From: Zygnema cylindricum
Taxonomy: Eukaryota > Streptophyta > Zygnematophyceae > Zygnematales > Zygnemataceae
Length of the DNA stretch: 64,000 nucleotides
NCBI GenBank assembly: GCA_037447655.1
Contig: JBBHKE010000085.1
Location: 1-64,000, forward strand
Direction: 5' to 3'
Below are positions 35,804 through 60,900 of this stretch, in pieces. The translations under genes were made by a program, and so were the position numbers. Under the pieces are notes generated by a model. That model searched no databases. It was given only the letters and a program-made list of their open reading frames with translations, and was not told the origin of the DNA. Position 1 is the first letter of the stretch, and each line of letters begins with the position of its first letter.

Positions 35804-35962
35804 GAACCGTGTCCTGTTTTATCATGTCCTTTTATCATGCCAGTTTATCAAGCCCATTTCTAATGCCTGCTACACGCGCATGGACCGTGTACTGTTTATC
35901 AAAACGTCTTAGTAATATTGTACTATTTAAGTCTTTCGTACTGATATTTGTAGGTGATGTTA

Positions 35963-36193
35963 TGTTGGATTGGCACGTGAAGCCGGTCCAATACGGGGTA
36001 GAATATGGAAATATCCATACTCGAGCCGCCCGTAATAAATGGGTACGGACCCGCCAGTCTCAACATCGGGCCGGGTAGCTCAGTTGGTAGAGCTCGTGTA
36101 CGGCTAACGAAAGGTCCCAGGTTCGAACCCTGGCCGGCTCAATTTTCCCAAGTGTGGGACATGCCGAATCCCGGATTTCTAGGAAATCTAACA
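35963..36193 (+). repeat. TRIM1 5' LTR
   Basis: 231 bp. By eye identical to the 3' LTR from the start to CATCG (36068) and from AAAGGTCCCAGG (36110) to the end. The 41 nt between (36069-36109) are replaced by a different sequence. Confidence 0.93.
36068..36141 (+). ncRNA. tRNA-like module, 5' LTR of TRIM1
   Basis: Acceptor GGGCCGG (36068-36074) pairs with CCGGCTC (36134-36140) with one G-U; the D arm GCTC-AGTTGGTA-GAGC is canonical (A box TAGCTCAGTTGG). The T arm CCAGG-TTCGAAC-CCTGG (B box GGTTCGAACCC) is canonical. The anticodon arm is weak (TCGT/ACGA), and there is one extra nucleotide between acceptor and D arm. AATTTTCC with a TTTT stop follows directly. It looks like a Pol III unit, but the poor anticodon arm argues against a decoding tRNA. 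Confidence 0.75.
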
Positions 36194-36207
36194 TGGTATC
36201 AGAGCCA
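36194..36207 (+). other. TRIM1 primer binding site
   Basis: TGGTATCAGAGCCA immediately after the 5' LTR, complementary to the 3' end of plant initiator tRNA-Met. Confidence 0.93.
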
Positions 36208-36241
36208 GCGGGATTGCGGATGGTTTGACCGGCTTTCCCGT

Positions 36242-36250
36242 GAGGGGGGG
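36242..36250 (+). other. TRIM1 polypurine tract
   Basis: GAGGGGGGG directly before the 3' LTR TGTTGG. Confidence 0.85.
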
Positions 36251-36479
36251 TGTTGGATTGGCACGTGAAGCCGGTCCAATACGGGGTAGAATATGGAAAT
36301 ATCCATACTCGAGCCGCCCGTAATAAATGGGTACGGACCCGCCAGTCTCAACATCGAGCTGGTGGCACAGTGGTAGTGCGTTCGCAGCTGAAGTGAAAGG
36401 TCCCAGGTTCGAACCCTGGCCGGCTCAATTTTCCCAAGTGTGGGACATGCCGAATCCCGGATTTCTAGGAAATCTAACA
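36251..36479 (+). repeat. TRIM1 3' LTR
   Basis: 229 bp, partner of 35963-36193, differing only in the 39-nt tRNA segment 36357-36395. Confidence 0.93.
36356..36427 (+). ncRNA. tRNA-like module with full cloverleaf, 3' LTR of TRIM1
   Basis: 72 nt fold as a complete cloverleaf: acceptor GAGCTGG/CCGGCTC (7 bp, one G-U), T8-G9, D arm GCAC-AGTGGTA-GTGC, anticodon arm TTCGC-AGCTGAA-GTGAA (5 bp, one G-U), variable AGGTC, T arm CCAGG-TTCGAAC-CCTGG, discriminator A. By position the anticodon would be CTG (36388-36390), but U33 is replaced by G, so a working decoding tRNA is unlikely. AATTTTCC supplies a TTTT terminator. The A box is TGGCACAGTGG and the B box GGTTCGAACCC. Confidence 0.8.
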
Positions 36480-36779
36480 TGTTATTTTCAAAGTTTTGTC
36501 CTCACTAGATAGAGCTGTGAGGGAAGACTTAACACTAAAAATATTTTTTGATAAGTTAGATGTAATACTTACCTTAAATAGTGTGACATTGAAGTATTAC
36601 TCTAGAGTATTTTGTACGGTCATATAAGACACGCGTCGGCATTTTAGATAACTCAGAAAATGCGGAATGGACCTCGACACATGTCGCCTATAGAACGGAT
36701 AACCTCGGTAGATCGGGGGGACGCGAAATGAACCGGATATCCAGGAACACAATTGATCTGTCACTCAGGAAGATGAGTC

Positions 36780-38444
36780 TTTGACCTTCAATGAGCAAGA
36801 AGACTCGGATTAATTTGCCATGGCAATAGCAATGGAGGGCTCAAAGGACGCCGGATGGATCATGGACACAAGGGCATCGACCCACATGTGTTGGAACAAG
36901 GGGCTTTTTGCCAATATGCAGACAACACCTGCAAAAAATATCTACTATGCTTGTGGCATAAGTGTCCAAACTTGTGCTCAGGGTGATGTTTCATTGCTGG
37001 TAGATGTAGGAGGAAAGTCTGTAGATAGGACAATTCATAATGTCTTATATGTTCCAAACTTCAAAAAAAATATGTTTTCCACTTCTTTAGTTGAAAGCGA
37101 AAGATTTGAGGTCACTCTTAATGGGGTTACGCAGGTTGTAAGCAAGCTAGGAAAAATAGCAATGATAGGAACTAGAGATGTAAGCAAAATGTATTGCATG
37201 GACGTGGCTGATTGTAAGGAAAATTATGTTCTCTACTGTGGTGTAATATCTAAAAATAATTTATGGCATAAAAGGCTAGGACTTGTTCACTATGACAGTT
37301 TAACAAAAATGGTTAAAGCTACGAAAGTAAAGGGTGTTTCTCTCACAGATCACCCAGTCAAAACTTGTGATGGCTGCTCTTTAGGAAAGATACTTAAACT
37401 GCCTTTTCCACAGGAATCGGATCATAGATCTACAAAAGTCTTGCAGTTAATTCACTCGGATGTTATGGGACCTGATCAGGTGCCCTCTGCTGGGGGGGTT
37501 CATTTTATAGTAACGTTTACAGATGACTTCTCAAGATTCACTAACGTTTACTTCATGAAGAAAAGAGTGAAGTGTTCGGACACTTCAAACACTACAAAGT
37601 TTGGGCGGAAAAACTGCATGGTGTTCCGATTTTGGAACTCAGAGCGGACAATGGAGGAGAGTATATGTCAATAGAATTCAAAAAAATTCTCCTAGATGAG
37701 GGTGTAAGTCGCCAGCTCACTGTTCTTTACACTCGTTCGCAAATTGGTGTTTCAGAAAGATTAAACAGAACCATTACAGAATATGTTAGATCTATGCTAA
37801 CAGATAAAAATATAGATTTGAAATTTTGGGCTGAGGCCCTTAACTGTGCAGTTTATATCAAAAATAAAATTGGTTCTACGTCTTTCAGTACTACACCCTT
37901 TGAACTTTGGACAGGTAGAAAGATTGATATTTGTCATTTCAGAGTTTTTGGAAGTAAATGCTTTGTTTTTAACACCTCACCAAGCACATGGAAAATGGAA
38001 CCAAAGGGTTTACCGGGTATCTTTATGGGGTATGATGATACTTCAAAATGCTACAGAGTATATATTTTTGATAAGCAAAAAGTAATTGTGTCTAGAAATA
38101 TTATTATAAAGGATGAGGAAGTTTTAGCAGATTTATTTAGCATGATAGAAAAACAGGCTGAGGAAAAGTCACAAGAATATGTTATTTTTGATACACAGAT
38201 AAAAGTTTATTTTCCAGTTGTTCGGCAACCTCTTGCAGATCGAGTGTCTTTCGATCCTCATGTTCCTCTTCAAACTCAGATGGAGCAAGCTGGACCGGTC
38301 CAAGAGCAGCAGCAACAAGTCATAAGACCAACGAGGAACGTCAGGGATCCATCGGTCTCCGCCTCAAAATTTTCGGGGGAAAGGAGATGTAGCAGCGGTC
38401 TACAATCTGGATCACACTTTGCAAACTCTGCTAACCCGAGATAA
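36780..38444 (+). pseudogene. C4 protease and integrase
   Basis: 36820-37674: protease GWIMDTRASTHMC (DSG changed to DTR), then VLYVPNFKKNMFSTSLVESERFEV, GAG-pre-integrase LWHKRLGLVHYDSLTKMVKA, CDGCSLGKILKLPFP, and integrase core with LIHSDVMGPDQVPSAGGVHFIVTFTDDFSRF. A frameshift near 37570 moves the frame to 37572-38444: ELRADNGGEYMSIEF, RLNRTITEYVRSML, FELWTGRKIDICHFRVFGSKCFVF, GIFMGYDDTSKCYRVYIFDKQK, with an acidic/Gln-rich linker at the end. The integrase is mostly readable across the single shift. The protease active-site change and missing gag make the copy non-autonomous. Confidence 0.87.
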
Positions 38445-38459
38445 CCTCAGACTATTCGG

Positions 38460-40023
38460 GAAGCCTTTTCTTCACCCAAATAAAAACACTGGATTGAGGC
38501 GGCAAACGATGAAATGAAGTCCATAATGGAAGCTCAAACGTGGGTGTTGGTTGATCTTCCTCCGGACCAGAAAGCCATCGCCAACAAATGGGTATTCAAA
38601 CTGAAACTAAATCCGGATGGCACCAATGAAAGATACAAAGCGAGACTTGTGACGAAAGGCTACAATCAAAAAGAAGAAATTGACTTTGAGGAGGCTTTCT
38701 CTCCGGTGGTAAGGTTTCCAACTGTCATAATTCTATTAAGTCTTGCTGCAATTGAAAACATGGAAAAGCATCAAATGGATGTTAAAACAACTTTTCTTCA
38801 TGAATAAACTTGAAGCTTGAAGAAACTATTTATATGAAGCAACCAGAAATGCGTGTAGAGAAAGGAAAAGAAAAACTAGTCTGTAAACTAATGAAATCTT
38901 TGTATAGGCTGAAATAGGCCCCTAGACAGTGGAACCTGAAGTTAGATGAATTCCTCACTAAATAAGGCTTTAAAAAAATCAGTTCAAATCATTCTCTGTA
39001 TGTTCTGCAAAGGGAGGATGGTGTACATTATATTGTTGTTTATGTAGATGATCTGCTGCTTATTAGCAAATATAGGGATGAAATAAATCGCATCAAGAGA
39101 GCCTTAAGGTCCAGATTTGAGATGAAAGACCTCGATGAGGCCAAATACATTTTAGGGATACAAGTAGAGAAAGATAGAAATAAAAGACAGATCATGTTAA
39201 CTCAAAAGGAGACTATTGGTTCCATGCTTGAAAAAATTGATATGAAAGAGGTAAAAGGATGTGTCACTCCTATGAAGTACAGACACAAATTCAAAGGAGT
39301 TGATTTTGATTCTGGTATTCTAGTTGATGAGAGCTTAGAGTCAAGGGAGGAGGATTTTGTGGCCTCAAAACCATACAGACAGGTAGTTGGTAGTCTCGTC
39401 TTCTTTATGAACTGCACGAGGCCCGATATAACAGGTGTTGTGGGAGCCTTAAGTAGAAGTATGCAGAATCCAAAATGGGCAGACTGGGAAGCTGTAAAAA
39501 GAGTTCTGAGGTATCTGGCAAGGACCCGGAATCTTAAACTTGTCCTTCGAGGAGGGGATGTCAAGCTGCAAACCTGGAGCGATGCGAGTTATGGCGATAT
39601 GCCCTGCAAGAAATCAACCACTAGTTTTGTCTTGCATATTGGAAACAGAACCTGCTGTTGGAGCAGCAAACTCCAGAAGGTCACCGCCCAATCAACTATA
39701 GAGTCATAATATATGGCAGCAAGCGCTGCCCTCAAGGAACTCCTATGGGTAATGGCACTTTTGCAGGAATTGGGACACATGCAAACTGGTCCTCAAGTCA
39801 TCTGGTGTGATAACCACGCAGCTATTGCCATTGCCTCCAATCCCAGCCACCACTTCAAGAGTAAGCACAAGGATGTCAAACTGCATTTTGTCCGAGAAAA
39901 AGTGCTTGCCAAAGTCATAAAATTGTGCTACATACCTGATTAAAATATATGGTTACAGATATGCTAACAAAAGCTCTACCTGCACCTAAATTATATAGTT
40001 TTGCAGAAAGGTTATTGGGCTAA
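38460..40023 (+). pseudogene. C4 reverse transcriptase and RNase H
   Basis: 38514-38807 encodes the RT start (AQTWVLVDLPPDQK, NKWVFKLKLNPDG, FSPVVRFPTVIILLSLAA, HQMDVKTTFLHE). Stops at about 38805-39000 interrupt it, but the catalytic box VVYVDDLLLISK is readable at about 39034-39070. 39122-39709 carries MKDLDEAKYILGIQVEKDR, CTRPDITGVVGALSRSM and RNase H WSDASYGDMPCKKSTTS; a single TAA at 39707-39709 interrupts it. 39713-39943 continues with WCDNHAAIAIASNPSHHFKSKH. The tail MLTKALPAPKLYSFAERLLG ends at 40021-40023, 24 bp before the purine tract. Motif residues are preserved; a few point stops and indels disable it. Confidence 0.87.
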
Positions 40024-40047
40024 GTGAATAATTAATTCTAAAGCTTT

Positions 40048-40054
40048 AGGGGAG
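40048..40054 (+). other. C4 polypurine tract
   Basis: AGGGGAG directly before the 3' LTR start TGTTATTTTC. Confidence 0.8.
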
Positions 40055-41017
40055 TGTTATTTTCAAAGCTTTGTCCTCAGTAGATAGAGCTGTGAGGGGA
40101 GACTTAACACTTAGAAAATTTTGTGATACGTTAGATGTAATACTTACTTTAAATAGTGTGACACTGAAATATTACTCTAGAGTATTTTGTACGGTCATAT
40201 AAAACACGTGTCGGCATTTTAGATAACTCAGAAAGTGCGGAATGTAGCTTGACACATGTCGCCTATCGAATGGATGACCTCATTAGATCGGGCGAACGAG
40301 AAATGAACTGGATATCCGGGAACACAGTTGTAAAGGGCAAATACCTGATGTCGGATTTTATCAGGTTAAAGGTTGAGGTTCGAGTGGGGACCACAGGTGA
40401 CGAGATGCCCCGTAAGCACCCCAAATATCCGTACGAAATCACCAAAGCAGATTCGACATACTAGACGGATGATGACCAAGCAAGCAACATTTTGAGTACG
40501 GAGTCAGATTGTAAATACCTGATGAAATATTTTTTGTTGCTTAGTGCTTTATCAAATAGTGTTTCACTATTTAGTTTTTAGGGTAGTTGCAATTAAGTTT
40601 TTGGAAGTACATTAGAGTACCTTGTCGTACTACAGCACAGTACTACTATTCAAAGTAGTGTCACCTGATTGGCTAATGAGCACTACGAGCTCACTCAGAG
40701 TATAAAGTTTAGGACTTAGAATTATTTTGGTATCCGGTTTTGGGAATATGGGAAATTAAAATGCATTTTTTGGGAAACTTGCATATCTCATATCTTATGG
40801 TTTACTTGGTCACTTATGCTGAAATTTTGGGAATTACCAGTGTATGTGCTAGTCTGTTTATGTGCCAATTCTAAGGGTAATTGGATATGTGAATCTGGAT
40901 TTACAGTGTGTCAAAAGGTGCTGTTTGTGAGGGATTTTTGTAAAGCTTCTGCTTAAGTATGTCTACTTCTACTACTACTGTTGCAGCTCCACCTGCACCT
41001 GTTTTCATAGAACAACT
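40055..41017 (+). repeat. C4 3' LTR
   Basis: About 963 bp. The last 59 bp (ATG at 40959) encode MSTSTTTVAAPPAPVFIEQL, again a gag start inside the LTR. The expected terminal CA reads CT. GGTGC follows as probable TSD. Confidence 0.82.
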
Positions 41018-41734: not shown

Positions 41735-43010
41735 TGGTTTTCCCAGGTGGGAGCTATAACATTTTTGCCTATTACTCGGGCATTCTATCTCACACAATAC
41801 CTACTATTCTTGTAAACAGACCTCTGTGTGTTCGGAGAGCACATGAACGACAACATACCATCCTTGAAACGAATGAAAATGGCCGCAAGGGGGATCTTAC
41901 AAACATTGAAGGAGGAGGCATCAACGACAAAGACACCAATGCAACAGGTGATACATTCAAGGTTTATATTTTGTTTATGTATGTTTTTGTTTGTGTTTAA
42001 TCTGTTAGGGTTTTACTTTATTTGTTTCTATTTTTGTTTTTGGTGTAAGTTTGTTTTTAGTTTATTTATTTTTTCTATTTTGCTTCATATGTTTCTATTT
42101 TTGTTATCTTTTTTTCATGTTTTCCTCTTGTTTTCCTTCTCATTCTTCTTTTATTTCTCCTTCTATTTCTCCTTCTCCTTCTTCTTCTCTTTCACTTTCA
42201 TTTTTTCCTTCTCATTCAATTCGTGTTCTTCGGCTCCTATTCTATGCATACTCTTCTAATTTAAGTTTTCTATCTTTTTAATCTTCATCGTTTATTTTTC
42301 TTGTATGAGGAGGCATCATAAACAAAGACCCTAATGTTTCTTGTAAAGGGTTTGATTTTTATTTATGTTTGTTTTTTTTTGTTTTTGCTTCATATGTTTT
42401 ATATTTTTTTTTCTGTTATTGATGATTTCCTCTCCTTTTCCTCCCCCTTGTCTTTTTATATCACCTTTTATTTCTCCTTCTCCTTATTTTTCTCTTTTAC
42501 CCCTTATTTTTTCTTTTCCTTCGATTCATCTTTTCCGACTCTTATTCTACAGATATTTGTTTAATTTACGTATACTCTTCTTCTAATCTTCATCGTCTAT
42601 TCTTATTGTAGGAGGAGGCATCACGAACGAAAACCCTAATGCATCACATGTTATTTTTAGAGTATGCATCACATGTTATTTTTAGAGTTAGTTTTTGGTT
42701 TATGCTTGTTTTTGTTTATTGTTTTTTTCTCTTTTGCTTCTTCTGTTTCTATTTTTGTTTTCTATTTTTTATGATTTGCTCTCTTTCTTCTTCTCCTTCT
42801 AATTCTCCTTCTCCTACTTCTTCTCTTTCACCCGCTATTTTTCTTTCTCCTTCCATTTATCTTCTTCGACTCTTCTTCTATGCCTATTTTTGCAATTTAG
42901 GTCTACTCTCTTTCTAACCTTAATACATCTACTCTCCTTCTTATCTTTATCGTCTATTTTTTTTGTAAGAGGCATCACGAACCTAATGCAACATGTGTTA
43001 TTTTTAGTGT
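41735..43010 (+). repeat. Exon-like block repeated in tandem with long pyrimidine spacers
   Basis: A short block GAGGAGGCATC(A/T)... followed by AACGA(C/A)A and ACCAATGC- or CCTAATGC-type sequence recurs at about 41913, 42309, 42612 and 42968. Repeats two to four are preceded by a long T/C tract ending in TGTAG, TGAG or GTAAG, like 3' splice acceptors. The first copy lies at the end of a possible exon (PSLKRMKMAARGILQTLKEEAS) starting after TTTTCCCAG at about 41746. It may be exon duplication in a degenerate mobile-element gene. No known protein was recognised, and Ser/Phe-rich frames in the spacers are not coding. Confidence 0.45.
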
Positions 43011-43314
43011 TTTTTTTGTTTATATTTATTTTTGTTTAATTTTTTTTTTCTGTTTTACTTCATTTGTTTCTATTTTTGTTTTTCTGTTTTTACATTTTCC
43101 TCTCCTAGTCCTTCTCCTTCTATACATATTCCTCTAATTTACGTCTACTATCCTTTTAATTTTTTTCGTATATTTTTATTATGTTATTCTTCTGTTTTTC
43201 TTAATTCTTCTTTTTCTTCTCTCCTCAATATATGTACGTATATATATACAACTTTCTTTAATGGTTTTTTTTATCATTTTCACGTATTTTTCTGTTTCGC
43301 TTTTTGATCTTGTA

Positions 43315-43470
43315 GGTGGTCGTAATAATAAAATTTCGCAAAACAAAGGTGGAAAATCCAAACACACCCGTATTGCCAAAAAACAAACACCAAAAATCGA
43401 TAGCCAAGGAGTGGGGAAAAGGGGTAAAAAAAAGGGAGAGTCAACTAAGGGTAACGACCAGAAATCTTTC
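43315..43470 (+). pseudogene. Possible exon of an unrecognised gene
   Basis: After a long pyrimidine tract and TTGTAG, about 140 bp of more balanced composition encodes a Lys/Asn/Gly-rich peptide (KHTRIAKKQTPKIDSQGVGK). It ends at AAGGGTAACG, a possible donor. It may belong with the 41735-43010 block. No family was recognised. Confidence 0.25.
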
Positions 43471-43499
43471 ATTTTTGTTTTCTTGTTATCATTTTAATA

Positions 43500-43860
43500 T
43501 ATTTCAATTTTAAAAAGATTTTTTTCAATTTACATAATTTTTTTTTTTTTTTTTTTTCATTTTTTTTTTATTTTTGTTTTTTTAAAAATAAAAAAAAAAA
43601 AAAAAAAAAATTTAGATGAATTAAAAATAAATAAAATAATAAATAATACATATATAATAGAAAAATTAAGTAAACAAAAAAAAATGAAAAAAATATATAT
43701 ATATACATATGTTAAACAGAAAGGTTAAGCTTTTTTTTTGAGATTTTACTTTTTATCTTTCGCATTTTTGCTATATATATATATATATATATTTATCTCT
43801 CTCATATTTTCAATGTATCGTTTTTTGTCTTTCTTCATTTTATCTTTTAACCTCATTTTT
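43500..43860. repeat. Homopolymer and TA microsatellite tract
   Basis: Long T and A runs (43538-43610) and a (TA)n run at about 43771-43792. Confidence 0.85.
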
Positions 43861-44809
43861 TTTGCATATCGTGACGAAAGAATGAAAGGATGAGGACGTG
43901 ATTAGTCTTTAAAAGCTTGAGACGATGGGGAAACCATGTGGAATCGGAAATGCCTCGACATCCGTGTTGACAAAATCGAAAGAATAAGAAGATGAGAAGG
44001 AGAAGATGACAACGTGACAGGTTTCAAAAACAAAAACAACTCGTTGGAGGTGTATAAAGAACCCTAAAAAAACCAAAAACCAAAGAGCGAAAGTGGGATT
44101 CGATAAAAATAAAAAATGAAAAAACAAAAAATATTAATATTATTTTACTTATTTGATACGGCGATGGTTCGAGAATGGGATCCGCAGTTACAGATGAAAC
44201 AATAAGACCATACGATGTCGGCTAACTGTGTTAAAACAAGAAGAGGAAAGAGGACTAAACAAAAAGGTAAGACAGATTGGTAAAAACAGATCTAAGCAAA
44301 AAAGTTGTCAAATATGAAAAAATAGAAGTTCAAAAATGAAAAAGAGAGAATAGGAAGGGCCAAGAAAAAAAAAGCAATTGTCGTTAACAACGATGAGAGG
44401 AAAAATGACGAAAGATATCATTGAATACGTCAAACTAAAATATCACTAAAGACGTAAAACTTCTACTGAAAATGAGATTCTTTCTTTAATGACACACGAT
44501 TCCCAAATTGATGTATTTCCGTTTAACCCCGCAAGCAGGTTGAGATCGTTTAACCCCGTAGCTGGCAAATCCAGATCGACCACATGATTAAACAGATTGA
44601 AGACATGTTGGAAGACGGGAGACAACTAAGCAGGATGGAAGAGATGGATACGTTGACTTTCATCCTAAGCAGGTCGAGAAACACTAAATAAGGGGGGACA
44701 GACTTGTTGGATTGGCACGTGAATGCCGGTTCAATACGGGGTATAATATGATACGTCACACTCGAAGCCGCCTAAATCAAATAGGTACGGACCCGCCAGG
44801 CTCTACATC

Positions 44810-44881
44810 GAGCTGGTGGCACAGTGGTTAGTGCGCTGACAACTCAAGTCAGAGGTCCCAGGTTCGAGCCCTGGCCCGCTA
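44810..44881 (+). ncRNA. tRNA-like module, 5' LTR of TRIM2
   Basis: D arm GCAC-AGTGGTTA-GTGC, anticodon arm CTGAC-AACTCAA-GTCAG (5 perfect pairs; anticodon position CTC, U33 replaced by A), variable AGGTC, T arm CCAGG-TTCGAGC-CCTGG. Acceptor GAGCTGG/CCCGCTA has two mismatches. TTTT follows at about 44884. Confidence 0.75.
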
Positions 44882-45106
44882 ACTTTTCCTTCACTTTTCC
44901 CTTGAATATGACATACCGAAACCCAGATTTCACGGAAATCAACATGATATCACACCCAGCGGGATTGCGGATGGAGTGACGGGCCTTCCCGTGAGGGGGT
45001 CTGTGGGATTCGCACGCGAATGCCGGTTCAATACAGGGTAGAATATGATACGTGACACTCGAAGCCGCCTAAAAGATATAGGTACGGACACGCCAGGCTC
45101 TACATC

Positions 45107-45179
45107 GCGCTGGTGGCACAGTTGTTAGTGCGCTGACAGCTCAAGTCAGAGGTCCCAGATTCGAACCCTGGCCGACTCA
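45107..45179 (+). ncRNA. tRNA-like module, 3' LTR of TRIM2
   Basis: Acceptor GCGCTGG/CCGACTC (two mismatched pairs), D arm GCAC-AGTTGTTA-GTGC, anticodon arm CTGAC-AGCTCAA-GTCAG, T arm CCAGA-TTCGAAC-CCTGG, discriminator A, then CTTTTCC. It has the same type as the TRIM1 3' LTR module (A box TGGCACAG). Confidence 0.75.
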
Positions 45180-45235
45180 CTTTTCCCTATTATGGGACAT
45201 ACCGAATCCCGAATTTTATGGAAATCAACAAGACT

Positions 45236-45900
45236 TTCTTTTTTGATCCGAAAAGAGGCCGAGATGAAAGATAAGTTAGAAGCTAGAAAAATGATTCATT
45301 TTTTTTTGTTGTTGTTATTGGGTTTTTTTTTTGTAGTGTCCTTACTTCTAAATCTTTATTATCGTTAAAAAAAAAATTATTAGCACAATACAAAAACAAT
45401 AAAACAAAAAAATAGAAAAAAAATTTAGCACAATGCTAAAATAACAAGAAAATGAAAAAAATATGCATAGCAAAAACCCTAAAACCTTAAACAATCAAAA
45501 AATAAAAAATCATTAAATTAACTAAAAAAGCGTTTATAAAATAAAGATATAAAACCGAATAATAAATAAAACAAGGTGCTTTAACCGTAACATTGGAAAA
45601 AACCAAACGCTTTCATAAACAAAACTAAAATCAAATATAAAATATTAAACCACAAAAATAATTAAAATATTTGAAAGAAAATATTTATCACACTTTCACG
45701 ATGATATTATTTAAAATCTTTCACTTTATCTCTTTTTTTATTTCTTGACTATTTGATTTCATTTCAACGCGCGTGTTTTGTTCTTATTTTAATGAGTCTC
45801 ACTTTCGATTTTGGCGGATATGTTTTAAAGATGCGGAATAGATTTTGAGCGAGCGGAGCTTTTATATTATTCTCTTTTTTTTCATTTTGTTTTTTAACCT
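45236..45900. other. AT-rich low-complexity spacer
   Basis: A- and T-run dominated; parts recur at 47320-47800 and 49090-49330. No gene was recognised. Confidence 0.6.
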
Positions 45901-46972
45901 CATTTTTCTTCTAAATCGTGATGAAAGAAGGAAAAGATGAAGATGTGACAAGTTTTTCAGAGTATGAGACGATGGGGAAACTGTGTAGAATCGAAAATTG
46001 TCTCAGCATCAGCGTTGAGACAGTCGAAGAAAAGAGAAATTAGAAACCTAAATACCGAAATAGGATGCAATAGAGAGAGACGGCGGTGGTTCGGGAATGG
46101 GATTCGCGGTAACAAAAGATGCGTTTATGAAAAAAATAGACTATACAATGTTGATAAACTGTGGTGAAACCTGGAAAGAGAAAAAAATCTTAAAAAAAAG
46201 TACGCCTGATTGGGAAAAACAGAAGGTCAAAAAATGAAAAAGAGAGAATAAGAATAGCCAAGAAAAATGAGCAACTAGCGTTAACAATTATTGGGAAAAA
46301 TAGAAGATCAAAAATGAAAAGAATAAAATAAAAAGGGTGAAGAAAAAATGAGCAACTAGCATTACCAACGGTGAGAGGAAAAAAAACATAAGATATCACT
46401 AAAGACGTCAAACTAAAATATCACCGAGGACCTCAAATTTTCTACCGAAAATGAAATACTTTCTTTAATAACACACAATTTTTAAATTGATATTTTTTTA
46501 ATGACACACAGTTTCTAAATTGGTCCATGTTTAACGCCCTAACTGGCAAATCTTGATCACCCACATTATTAAACAGGTTAAAGACGTGCTAGAGAACAGA
46601 GGGCGGCTGAGCGGGATAGAAGAGACACCCAAATCACCCGCATTATTGAACAGGTTAAAGACGGAGCAACTAGCGTTACCAACGGTGAGAGGAAAAAAAA
46701 CATAAGATATCACCGAAGACGTCAAACTAAAATATCACCGAGAACGTCAAATTTTCTACCGAATATGAAATACTTTATTTAATGACACACGGTTTTCAAA
46801 TTGATATTTTCCTTAATGACACACGATTTCTAAATTGATGTACCCCCGTTTGACGCCCTAACTGGCAAATCCCCCGCATTATTGAATAGGTTAAAGACGT
46901 GCTGGAGAACGAAAGGTGACTGAGCGGAATAGAAGAGACACATACGACGGCTTTAATCCTGAGCAAGCTGAG

Positions 46973-47205
46973 AACCACTAAATGCAAGTCGAAAAACCAC
47001 TAAATAAAAGAAGAGGGACCCCTTTTTTTGATGACCGAGAACCACTAAATGCAGGCCGAAAACCACTAAATGAAAAGGGGGAGATCCTATTTTTGGTGAG
47101 GAAAAAATTCGATCCTGAGCAGGCGAAAACCACTAAATGCAAGCGCAGGACCACTAAATGAAAGTGGAGAACCACTAAATGAAGACCGATTTCCACTAAA
47201 TGAAA
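46973..47205. repeat. Dispersed short array, CCACTAAAT(G)
   Basis: Eight copies of CCACTAAAT within 230 bp (near 46975, 46998, 47042, 47063, 47130, 47151, 47172 and 47193), most preceded by GA(A/G)AA or GGA and followed by GNA. Spacing is irregular, about 20-67 bp. Confidence 0.7.
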
Positions 47206-47340
47206 GGGGGGAGATCCCCTTTTCTAATGAGGGGAAAATCCGAGAACAGGTCGGGATGAAAGATAACTTAGAAGCTACTACTCGGGATGAAAGATAAGTT
47301 AGAAGCTACAAGAATGATTCATTTTTTTTTTGTTGTTGTT

Positions 47341-48624
47341 GTTAGTTTATTTTTCTTTTTTTATAGTATAATTACTTCTAAATCTTTTCTATGGTAAAAA
47401 TAAAAATTAATTAGCACAAAACAAAAACAAAAAAATCAAAAAAATAGAAAAAAAAACCTTAAAAAAAACTTTAAAAACTAACAAAAGTTAATAATAATAA
47501 AAACAAATCATTAAAATTCACTAAATAAAAACATTTATAATTAAATAAAAATATAAAACTAAAACAAAAAAAAAGTTCACCATAATATTGATAAAAAAAC
47601 AAAAAACTTTCATGTTAAACAAAAAACTAAAGAAAAAAATATAAAAACCTTAAAAAAACTCTAACAAACTAAAAAAAAAAAAATAATAATAAAAATAAAC
47701 CTTAAAATACTAAAAAAAAAAAAAAAAAAACATTTACCACACTCTTTCACTTTTTCATTTTTATTTTTTTCTTTTTCTCTCTTTTGATTTCACCTTGTTT
47801 TTCTATTTTATCTCTTTCAATTTCTTTCTTTTAATTCCATTTTATTTAATTTCACCCTTTTTTTGTGTTTTTTTTGTTTTTTTGTTTTTTTTTTCTATTT
47901 ATGTCTCTCTCTTCGTATTCTGATTTTTTTTGTTTTTCCTTTAAATGTTTTTTTTATATAATTTTTTTTCTCTCTTTTTATCTTTTTTTTAATTAAAAGC
48001 AATAAATTTTTAATTATGTTCTATATCAACTCTATAAAAAAATCACCTTTAGATTGCTCATTAGAATAGAATATAATAACATACATATATAATGAAAAAA
48101 AATATATATATGGAAAAAAAAACATTAAAAAAATTCACCTTTGAATTGCTCATTTCAAATTCTATAAAATAATTGTATGAAATCCTCATTTTTTCTCTTT
48201 TTTTTTATATATTGCAAATAAAAATCATTTAAAAAAATCACCTTAACCTTTAGATTGTTCATTTGAATACAATAAAATAATTGTATGAAATCTTCGTTTT
48301 TTCTTTTTTTTTCTCTTTTGTCTCTTTCTTTTAACAAGTCGTTTGATAAAAATGATGTAGTTTATTTTTACATTTTTCAAAAACTATGTTTTATCTTTCT
48401 TTTAACAAATCATTTTTTTTTCTCTTTTATTTCTCTCTCTTAATAAATGGTTTGATGGAAGTCATTCAATTATTTTTACATTTTTCAAAAACAATATTTT
48501 TAATCTTTCTTTTAACAACTCGTTTGATTAAAGAGAAGAAAGAAAAAGCAAAAATGAGAATTCAAAATAGAAATTCAAACACAAAAAAAACATAGAAAAA
48601 AATGCTAAAAAATGCCTTTTAAAA

Positions 48625-48681
<57 letters not shown>

Positions 48682-48703
48682 TTTCGACATTTAAAAAATG
48701 GTA

Positions 48704-48740
<37 letters not shown>

Positions 48741-50040
48741 TTTCGACATTTAAAAAATGGTAAAAAAAGAAACAAAACAAAAAAAACATTTAAGTAATTT
48801 GAAGTGATAAAATTCCTCCAATATTTTTCGCCACATACGAGATAAAAAAGATTGGCGAAAACAAGAGAAAAAATAAATGAACTTACCCATTCAAGTTTAG
48901 TTATAACACAAGAGAAAAAATAAATAAATCTTTGTAGCTTATCTAATTTTTTAGTGTTTGCAAAATATGGCTTTCAGTAATGATTTAGTTTTGTGGCATC
49001 TTTCGTACTTTATGCATTGCCAATTTTTTATTTCTACCCGCGATGTTTTTTTTAATCTCTGTGCATTTTGTCGTGAGAAAATGATGAATCTTTTTTATCC
49101 TAAAAAAACAGTTTATTAGCACAATACAAAAAACAAAAAAAACAAAAAAACAAAAAAAAACCCTTAAAAAACTAAAAAAAAGTTAATAATAATAATAATA
49201 AAAAAAAAAATCAAATAAATAAAAACATTTATAATAAAATAAAATTATAAAACTAAAACTAAAACAAAAAAAAACTCATCTTTCACTTTTTATTTCTCTC
49301 TTTTGATTTCACCCTGTTTTTCTTTTTTATCTCTTTCTCTTTCTTTCTTTTAATTCCATTTTATTTAATTTCACCCTTTTTTTTAAGTGTTTTTATTTTT
49401 TTTGTTTTTTTTATCTCTTTGTGTCTCTCTCCGTATTTTGCATCTTTTTGTTTTTCCTTTAAATGTTTTTTGTAAGTCATTTTTTTTCTCTCTTTGTCTT
49501 TTTTTGTGTATTCTGTTGTTTTTTTATTTTATTTATTTTTTATCTCTCTCATTTTTTCTATTTATCGTTTTCTTTCTTTCTTCATTTTATCTCGTAACTT
49601 CATTTTTTTTGCTCACTTCATTTTTTACCCCCGTGTTTTTAACTCTAATTTATTAAAAATCAAATTAAGGTTTATCAAGAATTGTTAATTCAAATTTAAA
49701 AAATAAAAAAAAGTGACGTAATCCGATCAAGGGTAAAAGAGAGAGGGGAGAGAGTTGTAAATGTTATCTCTCTCTTTTTTTTTTTCTCTCTCTCTCTCTC
49801 TCCCTCTCTCTCTCATTCCACCCTCTTTTTTTCTCGTGCACCCTTTTTTTTCTGTCTTGTTGTCTCGCTTCCTACCACATTTTTTTGTCTAGCTACCTAC
49901 CACATTTTTTTTTCTTTATCTTTATAGATGTTTTTTTTTTTTTTGTCTTTGTTTATCTCGTTGCTTTTTTTTTTTCTTTTTTCTCTCATTTTATAAAGGG
50001 CGGAGAGAGTATATTTCCACCCTATTTCCACCCCATTTCC
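47341..50040. repeat. Low-complexity AT and pyrimidine region with TA microsatellites
   Basis: About 2.7 kb of A/T homopolymers and TTTC/TCTC tracts. (TA)n runs are at about 48629-48669 and 48707-48734; each is followed by the same segment (TTTATATTTTCGACATTTAA), showing a local duplication. A second duplicated segment (TAAAATAATTGTATGAAATC) is near 48166 and 48271. A T/C tract fills 49755-50000. No coding content. Confidence 0.8.
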
Positions 50041-50475
50041 ACCCTAGTCTAAACGAGGCTTAAATAAGGTGTTTTCAATAAAAGAATGAAAAGGTATTTC
50101 AGAGGCTAAACTAGCATGCTTTCGGTGTACGAATGAGTAGTTATTATTGTCATTTACTAATACAGATGTTAAATCCGTAAGTTAAACCTAATAAAAAAGT
50201 GCAGTCAGATCCGTTAGTAAAACATCACGACAAAAAAAAAATGAAGTAATGGTGTAAATGTATAGTTATAATCACATAATTTATAAGTCCCCAAAATACT
50301 TAATACGCGATTTACTATGACCACACATTTTGGTATTCCTTTCAATTGTAAAAGATCTCGTTTTTAATGGCAATAACAATTGCGCACGTAAATTAGTGTC
50401 CCATAGAAAAAAAATGTGTAATTTTCGTGATTCGTGACAATGATGGATTTAAAAGCCAAATAAAATTTTCCATAC
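50041..50475. other. Intergenic, no recognised feature
   Basis: AT-rich unique-looking sequence without a gene, RNA gene or repeat end that I can identify. Confidence 0.4.
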
Positions 50476-50704
50476 ATATGCTTACAAAACCCCAACATGA
50501 TTTTAACAAATTGATATTTCCCCTGAATCGTATATTGAGATATAAAATGAGAAACTAATATAGTTTACCATATATTGTTGTCACTAGTGGATATGCTTAT
50601 AAAACCCCAACATGATTTTAACAAGTTGATGTTTCCCCTGAATCATATATTTAGGCATAAAAGGAAAAACTGTTATGGTACCATATATTGCTGTCACTAG
50701 TGGG
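50476..50704. repeat. Two-copy tandem duplication, about 116 bp unit
   Basis: Both copies contain ATATGCTTA, AAAACCCCAACATGATTTT, TTTCCCCTGAATC, ACCATATATTG and TGTCACTAGTGG. Confidence 0.8.
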
Positions 50705-50944
50705 CATTTGTGAATATCCTCTTCGCTCGAGCCATTGTTTATTGTTCAATTCAACATTACCCACTTCCCCTCCTCCCTTTTCTCCTCTCTCTGTATGTAT
50801 CCACTCCTTTCTTACTCACCCCCCTTTTTTCCCTCCCTCCAAACCATTGTTCAACCATTTTTCAATAAAACACCCTTTTGTCAATACAACACTAACAAAG
50901 TGAACGAAGTAACCTGATTTTGACGGTTTTTACGTGTTTACGTT

Positions 50945-51840
50945 CAATATAAATACAAATCATAGCTCAAATGTGCAAAAATAATTTAAAACTTTATATG
51001 TTGTTTGTTTATATCGTGCTCGTTTAAATCGTACACTCGTAGCTAAAATGTGCAAAAATAATTTGAAACTTAAAATGTTGTTTGTTTAGATCGTACTCGT
51101 TTAAATTGTACATTCTCCATACAAATTATAGACATTTGCTCGTTTGCCTGTACATTTTTTAAAGTAGGCCCAGTCTATCCGTCTACACGTCTGTACCAAA
51201 ATGTAACGTTTGCCCGGTCTATCTGTCTACAAGTGTGTACCAAAACATAACGTTTGCCCGGTCTATCTGTCTACAAGTGTGTACCAAAACATAACGTTTG
51301 TCTGTCTATCCCTCGGGCGACCTCACCAATCAGGTAGCTTTGTCCTTGGGGCGACCTCACCGATCACGTAACTTTTAAAGTAGGCCTGGTTCGTCAAAAG
51401 TGGCGCAAAGTGTGTAAATGTCTCATTTTAAAGTAGGCCCGGCTCGATCGGGTAAAGTTTAAAGTAGGCCCAGTTTTTCAAAAGTGACACAATTTGTGTT
51501 GATGTCCAGTTTTAAAGTAAGCCCGGTTCGTCGGGCAATTTCATCGTCTGGGTAGTTTTTAAAGTAGTCCGGTCTGTCCGTATGCACGTTTGTATGGAAA
51601 CGTCTGTCAGTTTGTCCCTCGGCCAAACCTCATTGATCGGGTAACTTATAAAGTTGGCCCGGTTTGCCAAAAGTGACGTAAATTGTATTGATGTCATGTT
51701 TTAAAGCCGACCTTGTTCGTGAAAAGTGGCGCAAAGTGTGTAAATGTCCCTTTTTAAAGTAGGCCCGGTTCGTGAAAGTGGCGCAAATGGGCACAAGTGG
51801 CTTAAGTCGTTCATTTTTGTGTAATGGGCATGATAAAACA
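50945..51840. repeat. Array of diverged direct repeats in the Helitron body
   Basis: Two copies of a 90-bp unit (AATGTGCAAAAATAATTT...GTTGTTTGTTTA, about 50970 and 51048). Then repeated CCGGTCTATCTGTCTACAAG units (51213, 51258 and a variant at 51172), then many copies of TTTAAAGTAGGCC(C/T)GG-type units with AAAAGTG(G/A)C to about 51800. It abuts the Helitron terminus at 51881, so it is probably the body of that element. Confidence 0.65.
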
Positions 51841-57806: not shown

Positions 57807-57985
57807 TTAATCTCTCGACCTTGACGAACCTCGCCCCCCGCCTCTCCCTCTCCCACCCCCCCCTCTCCCCCCACGACCCCTCCCTCCACCTCCACCTCCT
57901 CTTCCTCCCCCTCCCCTCCCTCCCCCTCCCCTTCCTCCCCCTCCCCTTCCTCCCCCTCCCCTTCCCCCCCTTCCTCTAAAACCTC
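57807..57985 (-). repeat. RGG-coding GGRGGRGG repeat of NOL10
   Basis: A pyrimidine-rich (CCTCCCC)n-like tract on plus encodes about 50 residues of Gly/Arg repeats ending GSSRSRD. RGG tails bind RNA and are arginine-methylation targets; this one replaces the basic tail of the animal protein. Confidence 0.85.
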
Positions 57986-60900
57986 CCCTCCCTGGACTCC
58001 TATCCCCAGGCAGTCCTAACGACTTCACACTCCTCCGAGCCGGATACTTGCCACTCTTTTCGTCCGTATCCCTACCGCCAAACCTTTCTCTTTCTCCGAA
58101 AGACTTTGGAAGAAGTTTAAACTCTCGGCTTCCCCCGACTCTCTTTACCTCTCCCCCCTGTTTCTCTGAAACTGCCGCGACTCTCTCCTCCAATGGTAAG
58201 CTTTGGACTTCTTTGAGGGACACATTATTTCGAAAAGCGGTCGCGTGAGCTTCATCTTTCGCCACATACAGCCTAAACACAGAAAAGACAAAAACAATCA
58301 ATAATAATTACCCAAAATAACCGCCAATCGGCAAAAAATTATAAAAAGGATCAAGGATCAAGGATCTGTCTCTAACTTTTAAACCTCAGCGAACAGTTGG
58401 ATGAACATAGAACATATCTTCGGATGCCCAGAAATCTATCCCTCAGATTAATGCCGTGAGAGGTGTACTGAAACTGACCATATTTAACGCCTTATTCTAA
58501 TTGTCAAGAGTCACATATTTCCTGCTATAACATCAGTGCACGGTTCAGAAAACTTTTGAAACTGTGACATCCAATAGACCTGGAAAAGAACCAATCAGAA
58601 AGGAGTTGACACAACACTTTTTCAGCCACAAGGTTCCCTCTCCATTCCAAAGCCACAGATCAAAAGGTTCCAGAAGTATCACAAATGCCTACCTCGGTTC
58701 ACTCCCTCGACTCTTAGAAGCCATAGCTCCATTTCTGGCATCTCTATTGTCCTCGGACCCATTCCCCTCGTCATCTTCTTCATCGTTTTCATCTTCCTCT
58801 CCATCATCTTCATCGATAAGGTCAAAATGCTCATCAAGATCTGGTGTAGGTTTTCCCACCTTCCGGGTGGAACCGTGGAGTGCCTTGTATTCGTCTGATT
58901 GGTCGTTAACTGTAAAAGCCTGGTATATGACGAAGGAAAAAAAAAATGACATTCGTAGCCAACGTGACAGAACAAGATACAAACAGGACAACCTTCCTGA
59001 ATGACGACTTAAGACAAAGAATACAAGGCATACGTGTTACAACAATAACTTGATAGAGCGAATATTCATTTCAAACTTCTCGTTTTTTATTCATAGGACA
59101 ACAGCATGTCTTCCTTTTATCGAAGTTTCAAGGTCCTGGTTATTAAGATATTGAGATCAGGCATGGGCTTTAAACTATGCTGTTTCATCCGGAAAAGCGT
59201 CATATATCTGATAAAAAGCATACGCAATAACTAGAAAGAAAAGGCTGGAGATAGAGTAGAAACTAATGCAGTCTAATTCCATCAAAAAATCTGGCTGACA
59301 ATTTGATTCATTTCCACAGAGATGGATGATCTTCGCAATATCCAGTTTAGAACAAAATGATTGGGAGAGGATACATACGCAGACAGCTATAAGGAAAAAA
59401 ACAAATAAAAAACACTTATGGGCTATATAACAGATGCAGGTAAACTAAAAAACCTCTCGCCAGTTTAGTCAACAGGTAAATAGGAATACGACCAGTAGAA
59501 AACAGGCCTTTCATGCAAATTGAGGAGCTTCCACACCTGATCTGTGAACAACGCCGAGAAACGTTCATCCATCAAAGTGTTCAAGGCAGTCCCCTTCTTC
59601 TTCCTCTTCTTTGAAGGATTCTTATCATCCTCTCCCTCCATAGTCCCTTCCGGAGTTTCTTCCGCCATGAGTCGGGCAGCTAATTCTGCATTCACTTTGG
59701 GAAGTTTGCGTTTCACCTGCAAAGTCCATCAACCAGCTTTCAGAACATTATTTTTCAAAGAAGTGACCAAAAAAACTTAGATACAGAAGTCCAAGAGAAG
59801 TTTCATACAAGAGCAAAACAGGTCAGGCAGAGGTGTTGACATAAACCGTGACACAAGAACCACAAAATTTTAGGAGTTTGTTTAATTATTTTGGGAGTTG
59901 GAAGTAAAAAGAGGTCAAATGAAGACATTGTGATGAATACGAACCGTAATGCGAGAAGCCCTTTCAGCGTCCATCTTTTGCTCAATACGTTTCTGACGAT
60001 AGACCTCATATGCGAAAGGATCGGTCATCACTTTTGCCTGTTCAAAACCTCACTAAAACATCAATTTCATGAATTGACAGAGATGTCATGTCAATGGAAA
60101 GACCACATTTCCAGGAAAGGCCAAACCCAAAACTGTATCCATCAACTTTGTCGCAAGCAAAAAAAACATCAATGTTACAAGCAGTAGAGAACATGCATTA
60201 CAGAGAAAAAGGATGTTGGAAGAAAATGACTTGCCTTGTGGTAAAGACGAGCATCGATAAAGAATCCATGCATGTAAGCTCGAAGCAAATTTGAACCAAG
60301 GAGGCTACTCAGATTTAAGCGGTCTAATTCTTCTCTGGTCACAAATTTGAAATCCTCATATACCACGGTTTCTCCTGTCTCTTCCATTTCTTCCTGTCGC
60401 CCCTCCCACAGACACGTTCTTCAGTCCACACCATTCTCTACAACTGATTTCCAATGGCTTATTAAGGTGCCTAGATTATCTCAAACATAACTTCATCACA
60501 TTACATTTACTCAAGGCCTCAATTTTGTTGTGGAAAGACTTCAAGGGAGCCTCAAACAGAATGGACCTCTCTCAGTATATATTTTCGTTTTCTGAGTCAA
60601 TAAATACAGCCAAGTACATCCTCAATTAACATCAGCAGATTATCATTCAATCATCTGTATCCTGAGTCCCTGTCAACCTCCTTATGCACGAATGGTTCTC
60701 AACAACTCGGTAGATAATAACTTAGGATGCTTTATGTACCGTGAGGTTATCCAGAAACGAGCACCAGCGAGGTGCAGGGCCCAACGCGGGAATAAAAAAG
60801 CTTTGCATTTTAGGCATATCAAGCGCCATCAAAATCAAACCACTGCCCTTAACAGCACAAACGTCGTTGATGCCACCTCCTCCTGGCTCGACACTAGTCA

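Follow-up and report, generated by a model that had tools for sequence, protein, structure and literature searches.

The 64,000-nucleotide window (the whole stretch of Zygnema cylindricum DNA that was analysed) holds a 517-bp TRIM of the Helenus (TRIMp3) kind at 35963-36479, and the 5' LTR of this element is a mosaic: a family-A LTR in which 40 nt of the tRNA-like unit are those of another family, B. Probably--and this is the reading adopted here--the element was mobilised in trans, its tRNA-like unit is likely a Pol III promoter, and the patch in the 5' LTR was left by a reverse transcriptase that switched template to family B and then back to family A. Helenus designates TRIMs whose LTR contains a tRNA-derived unit, for which the available part of the original description gives fungi, animals and one plant as hosts (Kojima 2024, PMC10886601). 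Its publication in 2024 puts out of date the earlier note on this DNA, which knew of no established tRNA counterpart to the 5S-bearing Cassandra elements.

The element and its two tRNA-like units

As read in the window sequence, the TRIM is structurally complete, just as the earlier note had claimed: LTRs of 231 and 229 bp, a 57-bp interior, the TSD TGTTA, a primer site and a purine tract are all present. It has the traits of Helenus as well: a short, non-coding body with two LTRs, PBS and PPT; a 5-bp TSD (TGTTA); and, in each LTR, a tRNA-derived sequence with A and B boxes (the sequence found by ARAGORN and Rfam, the boxes by eye). The primer binding site TGGTATCAGAGC, which we take to be of the initiator-Met type, recurs exactly in 9 of 53 family-A interiors of 40-90 bp; the commonest form, TGGTATCGGAGC, accounts for 35 of the 53. 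The TRIM has inserted at the outer border of a Copia LTR; the other LTR of that pair, at 40055, shows the TSD bases too but no insert. (The Copia element, 36480-40330, is degraded; its LTRs, at 36480-36755 and 40055-40330, are 90% alike, and the TRIM sits in its 5' edge. Elsewhere in the window, 57807-58307 on the minus strand is an exon like that of ENP2, a ribosome biogenesis protein, and has a long tail of glycine and arginine.) A nuclear HSP70-14 exon is nearest to green plants, as befits a streptophyte genome: its best match is at 81%, and named plants are at 66-76% among the 120 rows listed, candidates being limited to proteins of fitting length; the rubisco large-subunit family gave no match.

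Features of the window element and of a second Helenus copy (positions in the window)
Feature	Position	Strand	Basis or detail
Left TSD TGTTA	35958..35962	.	sequence; same letters at 36480-36484
5' LTR, 231 bp, chimeric: family A with family-B patch	35963..36193	+	LTR comparison
Hybrid tRNA-like unit, 5' LTR (first half from B, second from A)	36068..36141	+	ARAGORN; Rfam 33.7 bits at 36069-36141
40-nt patch, identical to nt 1-40 of the tRNA-like unit in several family-B copies	36069..36108	+	sequence comparison
TTTT, possible weak Pol III terminator, 5' LTR	36143..36146	+	sequence
Primer binding site TGGTATCAGAGC	36194..36205	+	sequence
Interior, 57 bp	36194..36250	+	element comparison
Polypurine tract, adjoining the 3' LTR	36240..36250	+	sequence
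3' LTR, 229 bp, pure family A	36251..36479	+	LTR comparison
CAA, -7 to -5 of the 3' LTR tRNA-like unit	36349..36351	+	sequence
Family-A tRNA-like unit, 3' LTR, full cloverleaf	36356..36427	+	ARAGORN; Rfam 53.6 bits
A box TGGCACAGTGG	36363..36373	+	motif by eye
B box GGTTCGAACCC	36406..36416	+	motif by eye
TTTT 3' of the 3' LTR unit	36429..36432	+	sequence
Right TSD TGTTA, opening 5 bp of a Copia LTR	36480..36484	.	sequence; Copia LTR comparison
Second, older Helenus copy, group A2, TSD AGACT	44705..45230	+	tRNA-like units at 44810 and 45107

ARAGORN calls one tRNA in each LTR, and both units exceed the Rfam gathering score of 29 bits (33.7 in the 5' LTR, 53.6 in the 3' LTR). The full cloverleaf that had been ascribed to the 3' LTR copy is borne out: all 21 of its pairs form, counted on identical family-A letters. 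The earlier description of each LTR as carrying an A box, a B box and a TTTT stands as written for the 3' LTR; in the 5' LTR it stands for the B box and the TTTT, the A box there being that of family B. A 66-bp probe made from the 3' half common to the two LTRs matches those two LTRs and nothing in 100 shuffles. The CAA ahead of the 3' LTR unit is a motif that precedes many plant tRNA genes, according to the accessible portion of PMC11700998. The unit is most likely an internal Pol III promoter--a putative one, and the text at hand of PMC10886601 says of the Helenus units generally that a promoter role needs experimental validation. The TTTT of the family-A 5' LTR could end transcripts early.

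Three other identities have been discarded. The TSD, the LTRs and the existence of family copies rule out a stray pair of tRNA genes; LTRs, PBS, PPT and the 5-bp TSD rule out a SINE; and Cassandra is ruled out by the lack of any 5S match, tRNA being the sole Rfam family found, whether gathering scores are applied to the window or an E limit of 1 to the element.

A family-B patch in one LTR

The 352.8-Mb genome (2,689 contigs) was searched with the element, which yields at least 53 matches, the window and overlapping matches inside arrays included (40 of 1,174 candidates scored). The earlier note had called for copies with TSDs to be counted: of the further family-A loci, 39 were read, and 30 of these have an exact 5-bp TSD. 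Among the 39, the tRNA-like unit is at the same LTR position in every one, with a deletion inside the unit of one LTR at L047; the suspicion that the block might be found in the window copies only can be laid aside, the more so as groups A2, B and C carry it in the same place. Six loci (L009, L011-L014, L016) have LTR pairs without a single difference. The TRIM is young, recently active and present in many copies. Six family-A loci have more than two full LTRs, and in all six an exact TSD encloses the entire array, as expected of single integration of a concatemeric cDNA; L010, an array of two full and two partial LTRs that is one of the 39, shows no TSD at the places tested. In another array, L043 (TSD GTCCG), the first interior consists of an A-run and the 3' part of a C interior. 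At L076, family-A LTRs stand in a row, mostly without interiors between them, their units 243 bp apart.

Set against this family, the window copy is odd in one particular, which the earlier reading had overlooked. All 13 differences between its LTRs fall in the first 41 bases of the tRNA-like unit and none in the other 188, a clustering with a chance of about 3e-11 if differences are independent and evenly spread. LTR pairs were compared at 35 of the 40 family-A loci (five being omitted as repeats of the identical LTR pair of L009): the 34 other elements have at most three LTR-LTR differences in that part of the unit, so the patch is one case in 35. A probe of the 5' LTR unit has at least 40 matches in the genome (40 of 830 candidates scored), of which the window alone is at 100%, the next being at 92%; the 30 of these that were cut out and read are all family A or family B, some of the loci also having C.

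The patch begins at its left junction with the first base of the B unit and one extra G, and ends within the 3' side of the anticodon stem. In the resulting hybrid the D and T stems are intact, and the anticodon stem has 3 of 5 pairs (B's own has 4 of 5); the acceptor stem has 5 of 7, or, by eye, 7 of 7 with the extra G included.

Why should one LTR be patched and the other left pure? The textbook pathway of reverse transcription generates two identical LTRs, so that a patch in one of them requires either an unusual, late template switch or a later repair. The main rival of template switching is the second of these: the same Helenus element, altered once integrated, a family-B copy serving as template for gene conversion or repair synthesis. 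That a single LTR is changed would follow from it directly, and there are B copies that could have donated the exact 40 nt. What makes it unlikely in our estimation is the scant homology available for ordinary conversion--A and B have only ACATCG in common at the left junction, while AAGGTCCC, which they also share, lies beyond the right junction--together with the B/C composite loci described below. An assembly error, the true copy being pure family A, is very improbable: the family is high-copy, which speaks for it, but mis-joins need long words in common, and 9 bp is the longest exact word found in both the A and the B LTRs that were compared.

Four groups, their cores and their mixtures

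The genome holds four Helenus groups: A, its relative A2, B and C. The older A2 copy in the window has LTRs that differ at 26 places; Rfam recognises both of its units (42.6 and 36.9 bits) and ARAGORN the one in the 5' LTR only. (It lies in a region, 42000-51500, that is AT-rich, with many short tandem and dispersed repeats.) A search with A2 gives at least 44 matches, counting the window, from 40 scored candidates out of 863. Family-B elements have an LTR of about 246 bp and an interior of about 61 bp; across the copies read, LTR lengths are 222-247 bp. Leaving out incomplete units, the hybrid among them, the collection comprises 104 distinct tRNA-like units: 37 of A, 42 of A2, 20 of B and 5 of C. 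Part of the unit's 5' half is duplicated in LTRs of two A2 loci, L098 and L103.

The unit occupies the same LTR position in all four groups, and the primer site is closely similar across A, B and C; U3 and U5 are little alike, except between A and A2. A passenger private to the window element is ruled out by the three other groups. The broader version of that idea, a SINE or stray tRNA copy riding in an otherwise ordinary TRIM, can hardly be right: a SINE insertion has been proposed as the origin of such LTRs (Kojima 2024, PMC10886601, in the part available), and some ancestral event may match it, but a shared placement across four groups with little resemblance in U3 and U5 (A and A2 apart) argues against a passenger.

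Core and flanks do not tell quite the same story. The flanks of A and A2 agree at 78-83%, those of A and C at 57% (U3) and 58% (U5), where shuffles give 49 and 47% (z = 3.2 and 2.8). Against the commonest A core, the cores of three of the five C copies match at 68 of 72 positions (94%) and the other two at 63/72 and 62/76; the commonest A2 core matches at 65/73 (89%), and the decayed A2 core of the window at 85%. In the core, then, A is closer to C than to A2 for three C copies only, and the case for core exchange is weaker with the commonest A and A2 cores at 65/73 rather than 85%. The discordance, a modest one, suggests either an earlier exchange of cores or strong core conservation.

The same ambiguity attends the base pairs. 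When a single typical unit from every group is compared, together with the hybrid, compensatory change of the kind that the earlier note asked for is seen between A and A2: two double changes and one compatible one-sided change, none broken, all of them in the anticodon stem; it is a contrast of single typical units and, because the cores have apparently been exchanged or strongly conserved, it is not clean proof of selection on the fold. In the one C LTR inspected for it there is no TTTT within 30 bases 3' of the unit, though one occurs elsewhere in U5, so a Pol III terminator is not conserved there. C LTRs at L054 and L064 have TATATAAAA upstream of the tRNA-like unit, a candidate upstream promoter element that may act with the internal one or in its place.

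Families B and C have been joined outright. In L064 and L073 a B LTR precedes an interior and an LTR of C; L064 is flanked by a 4/5-bp duplication (AGATT/AGATG), and no flanking duplication is seen at L073. L054 and L055 are more elaborate: an LTR with U3 of B, the core, and U5 of C, then C interior, C LTR, B interior and B LTR, the switch in the core falling at AAGGTCCC, which B and C have in common. They have their left flank in common, and their contigs agree at 99% over about 2.2 kb before diverging towards the end of the composite; the two look like duplicated or allelic copies of one insertion event. L055 is flanked by GGGAG, inside a GGGAG repeat. Across the genome, exact junctions at the primer site from a B-LTR end to a C interior number three, two of them L064 and L073, and those of a C-LTR end to a B interior also three, one of them L054; reversed-pattern controls number zero. 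(These counts cover mixed B/C patterns only, and the loci read are the three just named.) Composite loci of this kind, in the same genome as the patch, point to events of the reverse-transcription type and stand against repair after integration.

Probable exchange between families and the wider Helenus record

Template switching could have worked in the following way. An autonomous element, probably Copia, would supply the proteins that move the non-coding TRIM in trans; we infer the Copia partnership from the primer site and from a TSD of 5 bp. If RNAs of several families were packaged in one particle, the growing strand might pass from one family to another where both agree: either the primer site or the tRNA-like core would do. 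1) Passage at the primer site would generate the order B LTR, C interior, C LTR. 2) Re-priming at the primer site would generate tandem arrays. 3) Passage in the core would generate an LTR with U3 of B and U5 of C. 4) The patch in the window would record a brief excursion onto a B template in the course of 5' LTR synthesis, with a return to A. Primer site and tRNA-like core would thus serve as joints for the exchange of pieces between co-packaged families. That the core seems a preferred joint may reflect no more than its being the stretch most alike between the LTRs.

A bolder proposal is offered tentatively, as a possibility in which we place rather little confidence: the core is the R region, so that the RNA would start on or beside the first base of the core and end just past it. 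It would then be the joint at which unrelated TRIM families within one particle trade U3, U5 and half-cores, new Helenus families would arise by shuffling, and the patch would be the 5' end of a family-B RNA, its extra G an untemplated base added at the end of the template.

How much of this is new? Groups A, A2, B and C are new groups of a known kind, while chimeras between families at the tRNA-like core have not been found described in the open-access literature searched. The elements share with published Helenus, as far as the available part of PMC10886601 goes, small size, a tRNA-derived unit carrying both boxes in either LTR, a PBS and a PPT, a 5-bp TSD in plants and fungi, and several families per genome. 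They differ from the sole plant representative listed there, that of Selaginella moellendorffii (120-bp LTR, 85-bp interior), in LTRs of 222-247 bp and in having LTRs chimeric between families. Tandem arrays are on record there for one zebrafish Helenus family, so that those seen here are not new in kind. The terms chimer-, template switch-, hybrid and exchange are absent from that paper's main text. Helenus is also mentioned in a 2026 meeting report (PMC12859917, in the part available).

Comparisons farther afield, each limited to the accessible portion of its source, run similarly. Cassandra also has a Pol III-type unit in the LTR, a very short interior and tandem LTR-interior arrays (PMC7215508), but its unit is 5S rRNA, in place of the tRNA of the window element. 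The template-switch complexes of grasses (Sabot and Schulman 2007, PMC1950507) are likewise TSD-flanked structures with three LTRs, read as products of reverse transcription; their outer LTRs are alike, whereas some of the outer LTRs here come from different families. Tandem LTR-retrotransposons of rice also form TSD-flanked arrays with internal LTRs in common (PMC11899658), but these are LTR retrotransposons generally, more often gypsy, and the portion at hand mentions no tRNA-like unit in the LTR. A survey of plant TRIMs lists none in Physcomitrella patens (PMC4717578, in the part available). Searches of the open-access literature, judged for the most part by their listings, yielded no report of LTRs chimeric between TRIM families, and none of tRNA-bearing TRIMs in mosses.

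Several young Helenus groups inhabit a single streptophyte genome, where the available text of PMC10886601 lists a single plant. Predictions of tRNA genes for this genome will take in mobile copies. The start and end of the Helenus RNA are unmapped in that same text, and natural chimera junctions of the kind described here could help to place them.
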